Counted from the stretch's first letter, positions 29,178-37,823 are shown. The stretch: 37,823 nt of DNA from Limnohabitans sp. (GCA_009693305.1 SHXN01000003.1:1-37823), one strand, 5' to 3'. A program made the numbers and translations. Notes: generated by a model from the sequence alone, not told the origin.

Positions 29178-29284
29178 TAAGGATTCCCAGTTTTTCAGGA
29201 ACGCTATAGGTAATGTTTGGCATAGGGAAAATACGCTACTGGTAGTAGGTAAGATTCTTCAAAATTCCTTATTGCGACAGAACC
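29165..29284. mobile_element. MITE-like 120-bp element, copy 1
   Basis: Starts GGTTCTGTCGTAATAAGGA, ends TCCTTATTGCGACAGAACC (18/19 inverted repeat); 116/120 identical by eye to copy 2, same orientation. Confidence 0.8.
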
Positions 29285-29576
29285 CATCAGCCTTGATACT
29301 TTCAATGGCCGCTGTGTTGGCGCCGCTCTTGTCGATGGTGATCTTCTCGGGCACATCATGCAGGTTGACAGCTTGTTCAAGAAAACGACGCGCCGCAGCC
29401 CTATCCCGCTTGGCGGTCAGCAGGAAGTCGACTGTGTCGCCAGCACGGTCAACCGCGCGGTACAGGTATTTCCACTGGCCCGACAACTTGATGTAGGTCT
29501 CATCCATGCGCCAACCTCGACCAACGGGTCGTTTGTGCCTGCAAAAGACGGTAGCGAGCACAGGCACCCTCTTGAT
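29285..29576 (-). pseudogene. Truncated IS6-family-type transposase core
   Basis: Minus ORF: FCRHKRPVGRGWRMDETYIKLSGQWKYLYRAVDRAGDTVDFLLTAKRDRAAARRFLEQAVNLHDVPEKITIDKSGANTAAIESIKAD. Lacks the N-terminal HTH and the C-terminal catalytic part; both ends stop at the flanking 120-bp elements. Confidence 0.88.
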
Positions 29577-29782: not shown

Positions 29783-31069
29783 ATGAATTCAACCGTTTCT
29801 TCGCAACCCCAAACATTAGCGCAAAAACTAATCGCCAAGGCCGCGGGGCAGTCAACGGCCCAAGTGGGAGACGTGCTCACTTGTCAGGTGGATTTGGCGA
29901 TGTTTCATGACTCATCGGGGCCACGGCGTTTAAGGCCGATGCTTGAATCATTGGGCGCATCGATATGGGATCCCAAAAAAGTAGTGTTGGTGATAGATCA
30001 CTATGTGCCTGCGCAAGACGAGGACGTCAAACGCATTGTGCAAATCGCACGGCAAACCGCAAGGGATTGGAAACTACCCAACGTGATTGATTCCGAAGGC
30101 ATATGCCATGTGGTGTTGCCAGAGCGGGGTCATTTGCATCCAGGCATGTTTTGTGTGGGAGGCGATTCGCATTCGCCAACGGGCGGTGCGTTTGGTACTT
30201 ACATGTTTGGCATTGGTGCGACTGAAATGCTTGGCGTGGTGGTCACGGGTGAAATATGGGTGCAAGTGCCTCAAACCATTCGCATGCAATGGAATGGTCA
30301 ATTGCAACAAGCAGTGAGTGCCAAAGACATGATGTTGCACATGATTGGACGTTTTGGTATGAATGGTGGCAACTATCAAGCGGTGGAGTTTGCAGGTGAC
30401 GCAGTTTCTGCTTTGTCGATGCAAGAGCGAATGACGTTATCAAATATGAGTGCAGAGATGGGCGCGCAAGCGGGTTTGATTGCGGCCGATGATGTCACGG
30501 TTGATTATTTGAAGCAACATGGTGTGGCGCAACATCATCTAGAAAATATTTCGCATTGGGTGAGTGATGAAGATGCGGTGTGCGAAAAACATTTGTTTGA
30601 TGCAGCCACTTTATCGCCACAAGTGGCCGCACCTCATAGTCCTGCCAACACAAAATCAGTGACAAAATTTTTAGATGTGAAGCCAACCATCGCATACATT
30701 GGTGCGTGCACGGGCGCCAAGCTCGATGATTTGCGTGCAGCCGCATCGGTGCTCAAAGGCAAGCGTGTGGCCAGTCATGTGCGATTAGCGGTGGCGCCTG
30801 CCAGTGCGCGTGAACAACAACAAGCGCAACAAGAGGGTGTGATGGATATATTGCGCGATGCAGGGGCGCAAATTTTGCCCAACTCGTGCGGTGCATGTGC
30901 AGGCTATGGTATGACGTTTGAAGAGAATGCAACGGTAATATCGACCACAGCCAGAAATTTCAAAGGACGCATGGGCCCCGCCAGTGTGAATGTTTATTTG
31001 GCTTCGCCTTGGACGGTTGCAGCAAGTGCATTGCGTGGGTTCATCACGGACCCAAGGACGGTGATATGA
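29783..31069 (+). CDS. Aconitase/3-isopropylmalate dehydratase (LeuC-like) large subunit family protein
   Basis: VIDHYVPAQDE, GDSHSPTGGAFGTYMFGIGATEMLGV, Fe-S cysteines in GACTGAKLDDL and NSCGACAGYG. Confidence 0.92.
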   Translation: MNSTVSSQPQTLAQKLIAKAAGQSTAQVGDVLTCQVDLAMFHDSSGPRRLRPMLESLGASIWDPKKVVLVIDHYVPAQDEDVKRIVQIARQTARDWKLPNVIDSEGICHVVLPERGHLHPGMFCVGGDSHSPTGGAFGTYMFGIGATEMLGVVVTGEIWVQVPQTIRMQWNGQLQQAVSAKDMMLHMIGRFGMNGGNYQAVEFAGDAVSALSMQERMTLSNMSAEMGAQAGLIAADDVTVDYLKQHGVAQHHLENISHWVSDEDAVCEKHLFDAATLSPQVAAPHSPANTKSVTKFLDVKPTIAYIGACTGAKLDDLRAAASVLKGKRVASHVRLAVAPASAREQQQAQQEGVMDILRDAGAQILPNSCGACAGYGMTFEENATVISTTARNFKGRMGPASVNVYLASPWTVAASALRGFITDPRTVI

Positions 31070-31572
31070 ATGCCTCACGAGTCTGGCGAGTGGGTCACAA
31101 CATCGACACCGATGCATTAGCACCTGGCGCTTATATGAAATTTGGTTTGGATGAGATTGCCAAGCATTGTTTGGAATCGGTGCGACCTGAGTTTGCAAGC
31201 GGCGTTCAAAAAGGCGATGTGTTAGTAGCGGGTCCTAATTTTGGAATTGGTTCTTCGCGTGAGCAAGCCGCAGGTGTGTTGGTGCAATTGGGCGTTGCTG
31301 CAGTGATTGCGCCTTCTTATAGTGGATTGTTTTTTCGCAATGCATTCAATTTGGGATTGCTTTTACTCACCTGTGCAGATGCAGAGGAAATGCAAGAAGG
31401 TGACACCATACAATTGATTCATCGACCCGATGGCACTATTGTTATTGACAGAAAAAATCTCTCACCATTGTCTTGTCAATCAATCCCCCATTTTTTAATG
31501 GATATGGTGAATGCGGGCGGCTTATTGCCTCTTTTAAAAATGAAACAACAAGGAAAACAACATGTCGGTTGA
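31066..31572 (+). CDS. LeuD-like small subunit of the aconitase/isopropylmalate dehydratase family
   Basis: HNIDTDALAPGAYMKFG and GPNFGIGSSREQAAGVL; ATG at 31066 overlaps the LeuC-like stop (ATGA); the ORF track starts at 31009. Confidence 0.9.
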   Translation: MNASRVWRVGHNIDTDALAPGAYMKFGLDEIAKHCLESVRPEFASGVQKGDVLVAGPNFGIGSSREQAAGVLVQLGVAAVIAPSYSGLFFRNAFNLGLLLLTCADAEEMQEGDTIQLIHRPDGTIVIDRKNLSPLSCQSIPHFLMDMVNAGGLLPLLKMKQQGKQHVG

Positions 31573-33235
31573 TGTGACGATGGATCCAGTCACGCTGGCG
31601 GTACTCAAAGGTCGACTCGAGCAAATTGCCGATGAGATGGATGCAACACTGTACAGAAGCGCATTCAATCCCATCATTGCAGAAGCGCATGACGCGTGTC
31701 ATGGCATTTATGACGCGCAAAGTGGTGACACTTTGATTCAAGGCAAATCGGGCTTGCCTGTGTTTGTCGGTGCGATGTCGTTTGCGGTGCGTGCGGCAAT
31801 CAAAGTAGCCAATGAACGACAAGGTATGCAAGACGGAGATACGTGGCTCTTCAATGATCCTTATGAGGGTGGCACGCACGCCAATGATTTCAAACTCGTG
31901 CGACCTTTTTTTAGAAATAGACAATTGTTTTGTTTCATGGCGTCTGCTGCGCATTGGCACGATGTGGGTGGTGCAGTGCCTGGTAATTACAACCCAGGAG
32001 CCACCGAGTGTTGGCAAGAAGCGGTGCAAATTCCGCCTGTTCGAATTGTTCGCAAGGGCGAAATGGATGACGATGTGTTGGCTATTTTGCGCGCCAATAC
32101 GAGGCAACCTGACAGCATGTGGGGCGACCTCAATGGTCAATTGGCCGCGCTGGAATTGGGTGCCAGGCGATTGAATGATTTGTTGGATGAATACAGCGAT
32201 GCATTGGTTTTGCAATCCATGCGTGAGTTGCGCGCGCGCGCCTACAAACTCATGCGAGCACACATCAGTGAGTTGCCCAATGGCACTTATTCATTTGATG
32301 ATGTGTTGGACAACGATGGTGTGAACGATGTGTATCTTCATATCTACTTGGATATGACGATTCAAAACGATCGCATGACTTTGGATTTTTCTCGCACGTC
32401 CAAAGCCTGTGCAGGGCCTGTGAATATTTCAAGAGCCACTGCAATAGCGGCGTGCTATGTAGCGCTCAAACACGTGTTTCCTGATGTGCCTGCCAATGCG
32501 GGTGTGTTGGACGCGGTTGAATTTGTGATTCCTGATGGATTGGTGATCAGTGCCAATCATCCCAAGCCAGTGGGTGGTTACACCGAAACGATTTTGCGAA
32601 TGATTGATGTGATTTTCAGTGCGACTGCATTGGCCGATCCCAATCGTGTAGTGGCGCATGCCTACGGCACCATCAATGCGTTATCGATTGCAGGTCATCG
32701 CAGCGATGAAAAACGCAAGGGTCAGCGTTGGGTGATGTTCAGTTTTTTTGGCGGTGGTCATGGGGGTCATAGTCATGGCGATGGTTTGAGTCATGGCAAT
32801 GCGCCGATTTCAACGGCAACGATTCCTCCGTTGGAAATTTTGGAAGCCGCGTATCCTGTTCGCTTCACGCAATGGGCATTGCGTTCTGATTCTGGTGGCA
32901 AAGGGCAATACCGAGGTGGACTGGGTGCGGTTTATGAAATTGAAGTGTTAGAAGACGGTGCAGATGTATTTATTTTTGGTGAGCGCGGTAAATCGTCTCC
33001 CAAAGGAATAGCAGGTGGTGAACAAGCCAAGGCCAATGTGTTTTCTTATCTCAACAATGGACAGTGGTACAAGCCGCCCATGGCGAGCAAGATGATGGGA
33101 ATTCACATTCAAAAAGGTGAGCGCGTTCGATTAGAAACGCCAGGCGGCGGTGGATGGGGCAAGGCCGAAGATCGCGATCCAACAGCCATTGCGCACGACA
33201 TTGCCATGGGATACATCACAGGTGACGCATCTTGA
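31562..33235 (+). CDS. Hydantoinase B/oxoprolinase family protein (HyuB-like)
   Basis: DPVTLAVLKGRLEQIADEMDATLYRSAFNPIIAEAHDACHGIYDA; PGNYNPGATECWQEAVQIPPVRIV; PVRFTQWALRSDSGGKGQYRGGLG; RLETPGGGGWG. Confidence 0.93.
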   Translation: MSVDVTMDPVTLAVLKGRLEQIADEMDATLYRSAFNPIIAEAHDACHGIYDAQSGDTLIQGKSGLPVFVGAMSFAVRAAIKVANERQGMQDGDTWLFNDPYEGGTHANDFKLVRPFFRNRQLFCFMASAAHWHDVGGAVPGNYNPGATECWQEAVQIPPVRIVRKGEMDDDVLAILRANTRQPDSMWGDLNGQLAALELGARRLNDLLDEYSDALVLQSMRELRARAYKLMRAHISELPNGTYSFDDVLDNDGVNDVYLHIYLDMTIQNDRMTLDFSRTSKACAGPVNISRATAIAACYVALKHVFPDVPANAGVLDAVEFVIPDGLVISANHPKPVGGYTETILRMIDVIFSATALADPNRVVAHAYGTINALSIAGHRSDEKRKGQRWVMFSFFGGGHGGHSHGDGLSHGNAPISTATIPPLEILEAAYPVRFTQWALRSDSGGKGQYRGGLGAVYEIEVLEDGADVFIFGERGKSSPKGIAGGEQAKANVFSYLNNGQWYKPPMASKMMGIHIQKGERVRLETPGGGGWGKAEDRDPTAIAHDIAMGYITGDAS

Positions 33236-35292
33236 GTGCAAACAACAACGCTGCGCATTTGGTGGTGGGTGTGGATGTAGGTGGCACATTCACTGATTTA
33301 TTTGTACTCAACACGCAAGACGGTTCCGCACAAATTGTGAAGGTGCCTTCCACACGCGGTGAAGAAGCCAATGGTTTTATGAATGGGATTGCGCGCGTGC
33401 ACGCAAATGCAGCAGCTGCGGTGCGCACCATTGTGCATGGAACAACCGTTGGCACTAATGCATTGCTCGAGAAAAAAATTGCAAAGACCGGCATCATCAC
33501 CACGCGTGGTTTTAAAGATGTTTTAGAGATGCGAAGGCGCGATCGTCCGCAAACTTGGGGATTGCGTGGTACTTATTCGCCAATTGTTGCGAGAAATTTA
33601 AGACTTGAAGTGGATGAACGTGTGTTGGCCGATGGCACGGTGCACACGCCCGTCAACTTAAATCAAATCAAGCAAGCGGCCACGCAATTGATTGATATGG
33701 GTTGTGATGCGGTGTGTTTGTTTTTTATTAACACCTATGCCAATCCATCAAATGAACAAGCGGCCGCTAAAGTGTTGCGCGAAAGTTGGCCTAATTCTTT
33801 TGTAACCGTGGCCAGCGAAGTGTTGCCCGAGATTCGAGAGTTTGAGCGATGCTCCACATCGGTGATCAATGCATCGTTACAACCCGTTGTGGGCAGTTAT
33901 TTAGAAAGACTCGATCACGATTTACGAATACAAAATTTTTCGGGTGAGTTATTGATTGTGCAAAGCAATGGTGGCGTGATGTCGCGACAAACAGCGTGTG
34001 AGATGCCTGCGCGCACAGCATTGTCAGGACCCGCGGCTGGCGTGATTGCGTGTGCAGCAATTGCAAGAACAAGTGGTTATCCCAATGTGATCACAGGCGA
34101 CATGGGAGGTACTTCATTTGATGTGTCCTTGGTTGCCAATGGACAAGCCGCATTGGCCGCGCAAACATCGATTGAATTTGGCTTGGTGATTCGCTCACCC
34201 ATGATTCAAATTGAAACCATTGGTGCAGGTGGTGGGTCGATTGCATCGGTGGATGTGAGTGGTATGTTGCAAGTGGGGCCCGAATCGGCGGGAAGCAATC
34301 CAGGTCCTGCTTGTTATGGACGTGGTAATTTAAGACCGACGGTCACTGATGCCAATGTGTTTTTGGGACGCATTTCAGCCGATCGACCATTGGGTGGTGG
34401 TTTGTTAAAAGCATTGGATGCCAAGTTGTCCGAACAAGCCATCGATCAACACGTTGCAAAGCCTTTGGGATTGAGTGTGCACGATGCAGCGCAAGCGATA
34501 CTCACGGTGGCCAACGCAAAAATGGCTGGCGCCATACGCGTAGCATCGATTGAAAAAGGCCACGACCCACGTCAATTTGCATACATGCCTTTTGGTGGTG
34601 GTGGTGCGTTGCACGTTTGTGCAATGATGCGAGAAGTGGGTGTAACAACGGGCATCGTACCTCGATACCCCGGTGTGACATCGGCATTGGGTTGTGTGAT
34701 GGCCGATATGCGACACGATGCGGTGCAAACACTCAACACAGTGCTCAACGATTTAGATATTGAAGCACTACAACAACGATTGAAATCTTTGTCTGCTGCT
34801 TGTCAACAGCGTTTAGATTCTGCAGGTGTTGAGTTTGAACGCATTGAAGAGCAAATTAGTTTGGATATGTTGTACCAAGGGCAAACGCACACATTGGCTG
34901 TGACTTTGCCACAACAAACCATCAGTCGCACCATGATTCAATCGGCGTTTGAGAGCGTGTATCAACAAGCGTTTGGACGTGTATTGCATGGCTTGGTCAT
35001 TCGTTTGATGAATTTGCGTTATGCGCGCATGGGTATTCGTCCCAAATTTGATTTGTCGGTGCTCGCACCACAAGGCAAAGGCAGTACGCAATCCTTAGGC
35101 GTTCAAAAGGTGTATCACGCTTCTCAATGGTGGGATGCAAAACGATACGATCGATTGGCCCTGCCTGTGCAAACTGTGATTGAAGGCCCAGCGATTTTGG
35201 AGCAGGCCGATACCACGGTTTGGTTAGAACCTGATTTTTCTGCGCGTGTTGACGCATGGGGCAATTTGATTGTGCAAAGGATTTCATCATGA
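33232..35292 (+). CDS. Hydantoinase A/oxoprolinase family protein (HyuA-like)
   Basis: VVGVDVGGTFTDLFVL; VHGTTVGTNALLEKKIAKTGIITTRGFKDVLEMRRRDR; TGDMGGTSFDVSLV; GAGGGSIASVD. TTG start overlaps the HyuB stop. Confidence 0.93.
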   Translation: MSANNNAAHLVVGVDVGGTFTDLFVLNTQDGSAQIVKVPSTRGEEANGFMNGIARVHANAAAAVRTIVHGTTVGTNALLEKKIAKTGIITTRGFKDVLEMRRRDRPQTWGLRGTYSPIVARNLRLEVDERVLADGTVHTPVNLNQIKQAATQLIDMGCDAVCLFFINTYANPSNEQAAAKVLRESWPNSFVTVASEVLPEIREFERCSTSVINASLQPVVGSYLERLDHDLRIQNFSGELLIVQSNGGVMSRQTACEMPARTALSGPAAGVIACAAIARTSGYPNVITGDMGGTSFDVSLVANGQAALAAQTSIEFGLVIRSPMIQIETIGAGGGSIASVDVSGMLQVGPESAGSNPGPACYGRGNLRPTVTDANVFLGRISADRPLGGGLLKALDAKLSEQAIDQHVAKPLGLSVHDAAQAILTVANAKMAGAIRVASIEKGHDPRQFAYMPFGGGGALHVCAMMREVGVTTGIVPRYPGVTSALGCVMADMRHDAVQTLNTVLNDLDIEALQQRLKSLSAACQQRLDSAGVEFERIEEQISLDMLYQGQTHTLAVTLPQQTISRTMIQSAFESVYQQAFGRVLHGLVIRLMNLRYARMGIRPKFDLSVLAPQGKGSTQSLGVQKVYHASQWWDAKRYDRLALPVQTVIEGPAILEQADTTVWLEPDFSARVDAWGNLIVQRISS

Positions 35293-35891
35293 GTACTAAG
35301 CAAAGCAAATGGGGATTGACCATCATTGATTTGCAAAATGATTTTTTGCACGCCGATGGTGCTTATGCGCGTGGCAAAGCCACGAGTGCTGAGGCTTTGC
35401 TATTGGCCGATCGTGTCGTGCCTGTTGCGCAAGCGGTTAAACAACACGGTGGTATGGTGACTGCGAGTTTGTTTACCTTGTGGCCCGATGCCAATGGTGA
35501 GCCCATGATTTCTCCGCATCTGTTTGCCAATCGTCCTTTTTTAAAAAACGGCGATTTCAAAATGAGTGGATGGGGCCATGCCAATTTGGATGCGATTGCG
35601 TCTCATGTGGATGTCACCGTTAACAAGGTTGCCTACTCTGCATTTTTTAACACGCAACTCGATTGGGTATTGCGTCGTGCAGGCATTGATCATTTGGCCG
35701 TGTGTGGCATTGTTACCAACGGTGGCGTGGCCAGTACAGTGCGTGACGCGCACATGCGCGACTATCACACGGTGGTGATCAGCGATGGATGCGCCGCGTT
35801 TTCTCAAAAAATACACGACGCTGCGATTGCAGATATGTCAACTGTTGCAACGGTAATGGATTGCAAAAATTTTATTCAACAATTGGGTTGA
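35289..35891 (+). CDS. Isochorismatase-fold (cysteine hydrolase-like) family protein
   Basis: LTIIDLQNDFLHADGAYARG; VNKVAYSAFFNTQLDWVLRRAGIDHLAVCGIVTNGGVASTVRDAHMRDYHTVVISDGCAAF. ATG at 35289 overlaps the HyuA stop (ATGA); the ORF track starts at 35256. Confidence 0.9.
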   Translation: MSTKQSKWGLTIIDLQNDFLHADGAYARGKATSAEALLLADRVVPVAQAVKQHGGMVTASLFTLWPDANGEPMISPHLFANRPFLKNGDFKMSGWGHANLDAIASHVDVTVNKVAYSAFFNTQLDWVLRRAGIDHLAVCGIVTNGGVASTVRDAHMRDYHTVVISDGCAAFSQKIHDAAIADMSTVATVMDCKNFIQQLG

Positions 35892-35894
35892 TGT

Positions 35895-37292
35895 ATGACG
35901 CCCGATGCACAAATTTGTCGCGCATCACACATCGATGCATCTGTTCATTCATCGGTGGTGATTGTGGGTGCGGGTGCTTGTGGATTAACGGCTGCATTAA
36001 TGCTCAGACATGTAGGCGTTGAAGTGGTGGTGCTTGAGCGTGACGAGTATCCGTCGGGCTCAACGGCTTTGTCCGCAGGTTTTATTCCTGCCGCATCAAC
36101 GCGCATACAAAAAAGTATGGGTATCGAAGACAGTCCTGAGTTGTTTGCCAAAGACATTCAATCCAAAGCTAAAAACAAAGCTGATCCTGCACTCACCATG
36201 GCGTATGCCAAAGCCATAGGCCCCGCATTGGATGCATTAGAAAAAAACAATGGTTTGGTGTGGGAAGTGTTGGATAAATTCTTATATCCCAATCACAGCG
36301 TTCATCGCATGCATGCCGTGCCAGAAAAAACAGGTGATGCATTGATGACGCGTTTGCGAGCAGCAGCTGATGCGGCCGATGTGGTGGTGTTGACGCAAGC
36401 ACGTGTGAATCAAATTTGGTTAGATGACAGCAATCGTGTGTTGGGCGTTGGCTATACAACGCCAGACATCGACACATCATTGTTGCCGTGCGATGCTTTG
36501 TTATTGGCATGCAATGGTTTTGGTGGCAATACCGACTTGGTCAAAGAATTGCTGCCCGAGATGGCGCAAGCGTTGTATGCGGGGCATACAGGTAACGATG
36601 GTAGCGCCATTCTTTGGGGACGACAGATGGGTGCGGGCTTGGCCGATTTGGGTGCGTACCAAGGTCATGGATCTTGGGCGGTACCGCACGGCGTGTTGGT
36701 GTCGTGGGCCTTGATGATGGAGGGCGCGATTCAAGTGAATGAAAACGGTGAACGCTTTCATGACGAGACCTTGGGTTATTCTGAAGCGGCGGTGCATGTG
36801 CTGGCGCAACCCAACGCAACAGCTTGGAATATTTTTGACGATACTTTGTTGGCCTTTGCACAAGATTTTCCAGATTTTGTACAAGCACAAAAAGCAGGTG
36901 CTATTAAATCAACGAACAGCTTTAAAGAATTATCAAACGTCATTCAATGCGATACCAACCGTTTCCAACATACTTTAGATGGCGTAAAACCTGGTACCGA
37001 CTCATCAACAGGGCGAACATTTAAACGTTCCTTGCAAGGTCGATTGCACACCATCAAAGTCACTGGTGCTTTGTTTCACACGCAAGGTGGATTGGCTATT
37101 AACGATGAATGTCGCGTACTCAATCAACAAGGTCTGGCATTTCCAAATCTTTGGGCCGCAGGTGGCGCGGCGCGCGGTGTATCGGGTCAAGCGGTGTGGG
37201 GCTATTTGTCAGGTAATGGATTGCTCAGCGCTGTTGCTGGTGGTTACATCAGCGCACACACCATCTCACATCAACTCCAACATCCAAAGTAA
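35895..37292 (+). CDS. FAD-dependent oxidoreductase, fumarate reductase/succinate dehydrogenase flavoprotein type
   Basis: VVIVGAGACGLTAALMLRHVGVEVVVLERDEYPSGSTALSAGFIPAA (FAD-binding); C-terminal NLWAAGGAARGVSGQAVWGYLSGNGLLSAVAGG. Confidence 0.9.
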   Translation: MTPDAQICRASHIDASVHSSVVIVGAGACGLTAALMLRHVGVEVVVLERDEYPSGSTALSAGFIPAASTRIQKSMGIEDSPELFAKDIQSKAKNKADPALTMAYAKAIGPALDALEKNNGLVWEVLDKFLYPNHSVHRMHAVPEKTGDALMTRLRAAADAADVVVLTQARVNQIWLDDSNRVLGVGYTTPDIDTSLLPCDALLLACNGFGGNTDLVKELLPEMAQALYAGHTGNDGSAILWGRQMGAGLADLGAYQGHGSWAVPHGVLVSWALMMEGAIQVNENGERFHDETLGYSEAAVHVLAQPNATAWNIFDDTLLAFAQDFPDFVQAQKAGAIKSTNSFKELSNVIQCDTNRFQHTLDGVKPGTDSSTGRTFKRSLQGRLHTIKVTGALFHTQGGLAINDECRVLNQQGLAFPNLWAAGGAARGVSGQAVWGYLSGNGLLSAVAGGYISAHTISHQLQHPK

Positions 37293-37295
37293 CAC

Positions 37296-37823
37296 ATGAC
37301 TGATTTTAAAAAACGATTACAAGAAAAACACGCCGTGCACGCGCCTGGTGTGTACGATTCACTCAGTAGTTTGATTGCAGAGCAATCGGGCTTTGAAGCT
37401 TTGTATTTGTCGGGTGCGTCCATTGCGTATACTAAGTTGGGGCGATCTGATATTGGTTTGGTGACGGCATCTGAGGTTGCGCAAACATTGGCGGCGTTGG
37501 TAGAGCGCGTTCAATTGCCCATCATTGTGGACGCGGATACAGGTTTTGGAAATGCTCTCAACACGCGTCGCACTGTTTTAGAGTTTGAGCGTTGTGGTGC
37601 AAGAATAATTCAATTGGAAGATCAAACCTTTCCAAAACGATGCGGGCATTTACAAGGCAAAGGCGTGATATCGACCAAGGAGATGCAAGGTAAATTGCGT
37701 GCAGCCTTGGACGCGCGTCGATCGAATAACACCTTGATATTGGCGCGCACCGATGCAATTGCAGTTGAAGGTTTAGACGCCTCTTTGGATCGCGTAGAAC
37801 ATTATTTGGAGTGCGGCGTTGAT
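37296..37823 (+). CDS. Isocitrate lyase/PEP mutase superfamily protein (3' end beyond window)
   Basis: Own translation from ATG 37296: MTDFKKRLQEKHAVHAPGVYDSLSSLIAEQSGFEALYLSGASIAYTKLG...IIVDADTGFGN...IIQLEDQTFPKRCGHLQGK; open to the window end. Confidence 0.9.
   Translation, partial: MTDFKKRLQEKHAVHAPGVYDSLSSLIAEQSGFEALYLSGASIAYTKLGRSDIGLVTASEVAQTLAALVERVQLPIIVDADTGFGNALNTRRTVLEFERCGARIIQLEDQTFPKRCGHLQGKGVISTKEMQGKLRAALDARRSNNTLILARTDAIAVEGLDASLDRVEHYLECGVD

Follow-up and report, generated by a model that had tools for sequence, protein, structure and literature searches.

The window analysed here, a 37,823-nucleotide stretch of Limnohabitans sp. (GCA_009693305.1 SHXN01000003.1:1-37823), is the entire contig C105 of this genome and ends at 37823. 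Its last part carries a candidate catabolic operon of seven genes, which are listed below with the insertion-sequence remnant that forms the upstream boundary of the operon.

29783..31069, + strand: LeuC-type (HacA/DmdA-like, 428 aa) hydratase large subunit.
31066..31572, + strand: LeuD/DmdB-family small subunit (TIGR02087 above cut-off).
31562..33235, + strand: HyuB (hydantoinase B/oxoprolinase), with motifs NDPYEGGTHAND and AHWHDVGG.
33232..35292, + strand: HyuA (hydantoinase A/oxoprolinase), TTG start, with motifs DVGGTFTD, DMGGT and GSNPGP.
35289..35891, + strand: isochorismatase-fold hydrolase, with GIVTNGGVAST and Gly at the catalytic Cys position.
35895..37292, + strand: FAD_binding_2 flavoprotein of flavocytochrome c / urocanate reductase fold.
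37296->37823, + strand: ICL/PEPM-family lyase, first 176 codons with the KRCGH motif; the 3′ part lies beyond the contig end.
29165..29696, strand not assigned: IS6-family remnant with four 19-nt inverted-repeat arms (GGTTCTGTCGCAATAAGGA) and a partial transposase open reading frame (29259-29567, - strand).

The seven tightly packed plus-strand genes of the initial annotation were borne out: all seven reading frames are open, neighbours overlap by 4-11 nt or sit 3 nt apart, and the family assignment of each was backed by Pfam and NCBIfam. The lyase gene is truncated because contig C105 stops at 37823. The initial annotation had asked for the sequence past this point, and it was supplied by contig C22 of the same genome. 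Past the remaining part of the lyase (C22:2-409, with an NMVEGGQTP loop), C22 encodes in turn a PuuE/cyclic-imidase-like hydrolase, a racemase of the Asp/Glu/hydantoin type and a protein resembling SnoaL. A 76-nt overlap of 98.7% identity between the end of C105 and the start of C22 is suggestive of a join, though not proof of one. The PuuE-like hydrolase scored 125 bits to TIGR03212, below the cut-off, and its best solved relatives were PuuE structures (1z7a and 3cl6); the racemase was 58% identical to that of the Neorhizobium operon copy. Two further contigs of this genome carry related genes. Contig C131 holds a related GntR and branched-chain-type ABC transporter set, and contig C109 holds a paralogous lower module (L180, 1947-5614) consisting of a Cys-less isochorismatase-fold gene, ICL/PEPM, LeuC2, whose frame has one internal stop, LeuD2 and a TTT binding protein. 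In the window, the IS6-type arms alternate around the partial transposase; the region is a remnant that has been nested or rearranged, and the assembly may be weak here. With this remnant at the upstream boundary, the operon itself is better assured than its adjacency to rpsB-tsf in the draft assembly.

Conservation of the gene set was examined by scanning genome contigs with an alignment of the isochorismatase-fold protein, so that all loci were selected by this gene. The scan yielded 80 loci, mainly in Comamonadaceae and Alcaligenaceae, and nearly all had the order transporter, LeuC, LeuD, HyuB, HyuA, isochorismatase fold, FAD enzyme, ICL/PEPM lyase, which was the same in Variovorax, Limnohabitans and others. 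Chance grouping is excluded because the order recurs in dozens of genomes. Among 94 isochorismatase-fold loci with sufficient flank, the partners HyuA (91), HyuB (91), ICL/PEPM (87), LeuC (86) and FAD (79) supported the prediction of one conserved catabolic unit, although these counts are not independent, since the isochorismatase-fold gene chose the loci and a few loci were present twice. Even sampling placed the marker gene in 9 of the phylum's 399 sampled genomes, the present one among them, and in 26 of 385 from one class. Its gene tree placed a beta/gamma group (19 rows, support 100/99) apart from the alphaproteobacterial sequences. Two LeuCD subtypes occupy the same place in the operon: the window and the majority of its relatives have the short HacA/DmdA-like one, whereas Azospirillum, Sulfitobacter and Roseomonas have standard LeuC.

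Cousin clusters were found by separate plasmid searches starting from LeuC and from the FAD enzyme. In these the lower steps were the same and the upper enzymes differed. Plasmid p1 of B. plantarii carries two PuuE-like genes, a Cys-bearing isochorismatase fold, GntR, LeuCD, FAD, ICL, ETF, acyl-CoA dehydrogenase and CaiB, with identities of 69% (LeuC), 57% (FAD) and 69% (ICL). The Acidiphilium cluster comprises CaiB, an HMG-CoA-lyase-type enzyme, a Cys-bearing isochorismatase fold, two PuuE-like genes, LeuCD and FAD, with HyuA farther along; that of Haloferax comprises FAD, NTF2/SnoaL, a Cys-bearing isochorismatase fold, a dihydropyrimidinase-like enzyme, a CoA-transferase (CaiB), an HMG-CoA-lyase-type enzyme and LeuCD. 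In Tistrella the FAD gene is replaced by acyl-CoA dehydrogenase and CaiB. HyuBA is missing from Roseateles and Pigmentiphaga, where a PF01494-type monooxygenase occurs with an AMDase-like protein; at L057 both HyuBA and this module are present. Four exchanges emerged: in place of HyuBA, two PuuE-like hydrolases or one dihydropyrimidinase-like enzyme; in place of the Cys-less isochorismatase-fold protein, a homologue that bears the cysteine; in place of the FAD enzyme, acyl-CoA dehydrogenase and CoA-transferase; and in place of the ICL/PEPM lyase, CoA-transferase and an HMG-CoA-lyase-type enzyme. These swaps suggest which genes are equivalent in function, as ring hydrolase, amidase, dehydrogenase, hydratase or C-C lyase. 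Judging from family knowledge, a tertiary 2-alkylmalate, citramalate for example, would suit the HMG-CoA-lyase alternative. The independent swaps back the logic first proposed for the operon, namely ring opening, amide processing, desaturation, hydration and C-C cleavage.

Several observations were made alongside these searches. A locus recorded as an Akkermansia muciniphila metagenome-assembled genome (L019) carries a typical Limnohabitans-like operon copy; probably the record is mislabelled or its bin is a mixture. In Limnohabitans loci L012, L013, L015, L021-L023 and L025 a salicylate-hydroxylase-like monooxygenase recurs downstream of the lyase, often with a TTT binding protein and in four of these loci with an amidohydrolase too. 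A D-amino-acid-dehydrogenase-like gene lies near or immediately 3′ of the lyase at L063, L065, L074 and L075. Another undescribed ring pathway is perhaps encoded by separate Roseomonas and Thioclava clusters (L181, L182), in which a PnpA/HspB-like monooxygenase occurs together with AMDase-like proteins and with isochorismatase-fold proteins that bear the Cys. On a Peribacillus plasmid (L185) the gene order CaiB, LeuC, LeuD, HMG-CoA-lyase type, Asp/Glu racemase, tartrate dehydrogenase suggests that alkylmaleate or citramalate is used. Histidine-degradation genes by L103 and the Haloferax cluster were set aside as a clue, their presence being probably due to chance.

The active-site motifs of the individual enzymes were then compared with those of characterized relatives. 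In HyuA, pattern matching found the ATP motifs of the hydantoinase/oxoprolinase A subunit (PMC8453981) intact (DVGGTFTD, DMGGT, GSNPGP). In HyuB, the His-Asp-His metal ligands of caprolactamase CapB are kept in NDPYEGGTHAND and AHWHDVGG, and the Asp-His-Asp-His metal site was recovered by pattern in THAND and AHWHDVGG, with the first Asp placed by eye only, in AEAHDACHG. The NCBIfam caprolactamase models matched HyuBA far under their cut-off (533 and 281 bits versus 1000).

The LeuC-type protein has candidate 4Fe-4S ligands at C309, C369 and C372. A leucine-biosynthetic identity was rejected, as the protein scored 166 bits where the LeuC equivalog of leucine synthesis has its cut-off at 560, and stronger LeuC matches lie elsewhere in the genome, on C18 and C109. 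The LeuD loop YMKF was rejected as a marker of specificity; it is not diagnostic because bacterial LeuD also has YLK-type loops. The lyase carries the KKCGH/KRCGH catalytic motif (FPKRCGHL), and at full length it grouped with methylisocitrate, dimethylmalate and petal-death lyases, falling under the PrpB equivalog cut-off (295 versus 354 bits).

Two enzymes departed from their initial assignments. The predicted model of the isochorismatase-fold protein (pLDDT 91) had its closest folds in biuret hydrolase, maleamate amidase and RutB, but the catalytic Cys of the TN-x-C-type motif (NicF, RutB, CSHase) is absent. Of 121 high-scoring matches, 120 have Gly (in one case Ala) at its position, and the pattern misread the other match. 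The protein proposed as the amide enzyme is therefore not a normal cysteine amidase. The FAD enzyme had been described as a fumarate-reductase-type flavoprotein desaturating a dicarboxylate. The fold held, being of the flavocytochrome c / urocanate reductase type with equivalents of His365 and His504, but alignment to flavocytochrome c3 chains revealed that Glu378, Arg381, Arg402 and Arg544 of Fcc3 are not kept. In Fcc3 the three arginines (R381, R402, R544) bind the substrate; an invariant Tyr295 lies near the R402 position. Because these four residues are missing, desaturation of a dicarboxylate is not readable from the fold, and a fumarate-reductase role assigned on that basis was rejected.

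From the gene content, operon structure, conservation, active-site motifs and swaps, we infer a reaction order and a substrate class. The reading that the operon breaks down a small cyclic imide or a closely related lactam stands at about an even chance. ATP-using HyuBA, alone or with the PuuE-like hydrolase of C22, would open the ring, and the isochorismatase-fold protein would free ammonia from the resulting half-amide. The FAD enzyme would then introduce or adjust an α,β double bond, turning a substituted dicarboxylate into a substituted maleate, which LeuCD would hydrate to a 2-alkylmalate. Finally, cleavage of the latter by the ICL/PEPM lyase would yield a short carboxylate together with pyruvate (or glyoxylate). 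The racemase, 4-OT/SnoaL and PrpD would be accessory and lineage-dependent. Cyclic imides, already named in the initial annotation, are indirectly favoured because PuuE relatives include demonstrated imidases, HxnM and the P. putida cyclic imide hydrolase (PMC9304392), and PuuE-like genes recur with the set. In a more specific and rather improbable version, the operon would be a widespread route devoted to maleimides or succinimides with alkyl groups, such as the tetrapyrrole breakdown products (first raised in the initial annotation) hematinic acid or methyl-ethyl-maleimide. The dialkylmaleate would be hydrated and retro-aldol cleaved to pyruvate and glutarate or butyrate, and self-cleaving dialkylmaleamates would enable a Cys-less amidase.

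Four points weigh against breakdown of an imide in this order. An isochorismatase-fold enzyme without the usual nucleophile means that the second step needs another mechanism. The FAD enzyme, lacking the dicarboxylate-binding arginines, may act on the ring instead. HyuBA and the PuuE-like enzyme would be redundant if both opened the same ring, and LeuCD, lyase and a Cys-less isochorismatase-fold gene occur without HyuBA at L036, L073 and L180.

An unlikely alternative is a cyclic ureide, a substituted hydantoin or dihydropyrimidine opened by HyuBA, with the isochorismatase-fold enzyme taking carbamate/ammonia off the N-carbamoyl product and the acid passing to LeuCD and the lyase. HyuBA, PuuE and dihydropyrimidinase-like enzymes all have ureide-ring activity, the isochorismatase-fold model is close to biuret hydrolase and RutB, an Asp/Glu/hydantoin racemase gene is present both on C22 and in Neorhizobium, and one locus has a full PuuE allantoinase. 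However, a carbamoyl route leaves an amino acid, the deaminase or transaminase then required was not found in the unit, and LeuCD requires a dicarboxylate.

It is distinctly unlikely that the operon processes an opened hydroxypyridine or similar aromatic N-heterocycle, the ring having been prepared by a PnpA/HspB-like FAD monooxygenase and an AMDase-like protein. This module lies within or next to the set at L057, L073 and L085, but most loci are without it. SnoaL-like genes beside some operon copies recall the 'polyketide cyclase' that opens 2,3,6-trihydroxypyridine in Rhodococcus and Arthrobacter (PMC9304392). A 6-hydroxynicotinate reductase adjoining the Sulfitobacter S190 copy was rejected as a substrate clue, since hydroxynicotinate genes are absent near two other Sulfitobacter copies.

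We also doubt, strongly, that one promoter serves two loosely linked pathways, a HyuBA/FAD module for amide rings and a LeuCD/lyase module for imported substituted dicarboxylates. Jezberella L054 has HyuBA, isochorismatase fold and FAD without LeuCD and lyase, the lower module stands without HyuBA on C109 and in Halomonas, and separate TTT/TRAP transporters adjoin LeuCD; nevertheless, joint conservation is high and the repeated swaps retain all steps together. Least credible is a pathway already described, whether breakdown of creatinine/N-methylhydantoin or nicotinate fermentation of the E. barkeri type. From general knowledge, the former shares HyuBA and the isochorismatase fold with the operon and the latter LeuCD and ICL/PEPM, but gene content already contradicts both: the carbamoylsarcosine amidohydrolase match is weak, and sarcosine oxidase, enamidase and B12 mutase genes are not recurrent in the unit, the creatinine pathway being rejected on the absent catalytic Cys and sarcosine oxidase.

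At the marker-gene frequencies given above, the pathway is common among freshwater, soil and marine bacteria. It would be a further route for degrading nitrogen rings, one whose enzyme order can be tested. The Cys-less isochorismatase-fold branch, misleadingly labelled 'cysteine hydrolase', would gain a function, and many 'leuC/leuD' annotations would be corrected. No published description of the gene set was found in a literature search that reached few subscription journals.

Known systems share parts of the operon. The maleamate amidohydrolase NicF, biuret hydrolase and RutB have the fold of the operon protein but a catalytic Cys where it has Gly. Caprolactamase CapAB, N-methylhydantoinase and IaaCE (Pfam Hydantoinase_A/B) resemble HyuBA in both subunits and in ATP and metal-ligand motifs, but have a different partner set. 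The cyclic imide hydrolase/HxnM/PuuE family is paralleled by the PuuE-like gene 3′ of the lyase on C22 and by those in HyuBA's place in the cousin clusters; HxnM is an imidase whose step is succeeded by that of an amidase (PMC9304392), in a pathway without the hydration and lyase steps. The parallel first drawn with E. barkeri nicotinate fermentation (DmdAB, dimethylmalate lyase) stood for the last two enzyme families, hydration and cleavage, but not for the 6-hydroxynicotinate reductase, enamidase, B12 mutase and isomerase, none of which is in the unit, the first three being absent from the recurrent neighbours. In the methylcitrate cycle (PrpD, aconitase, PrpB), whose PrpC was not among the recurrent partners of the operon, a hydratase is likewise followed by a PrpB-like lyase, and PrpD is sometimes present in operon loci.

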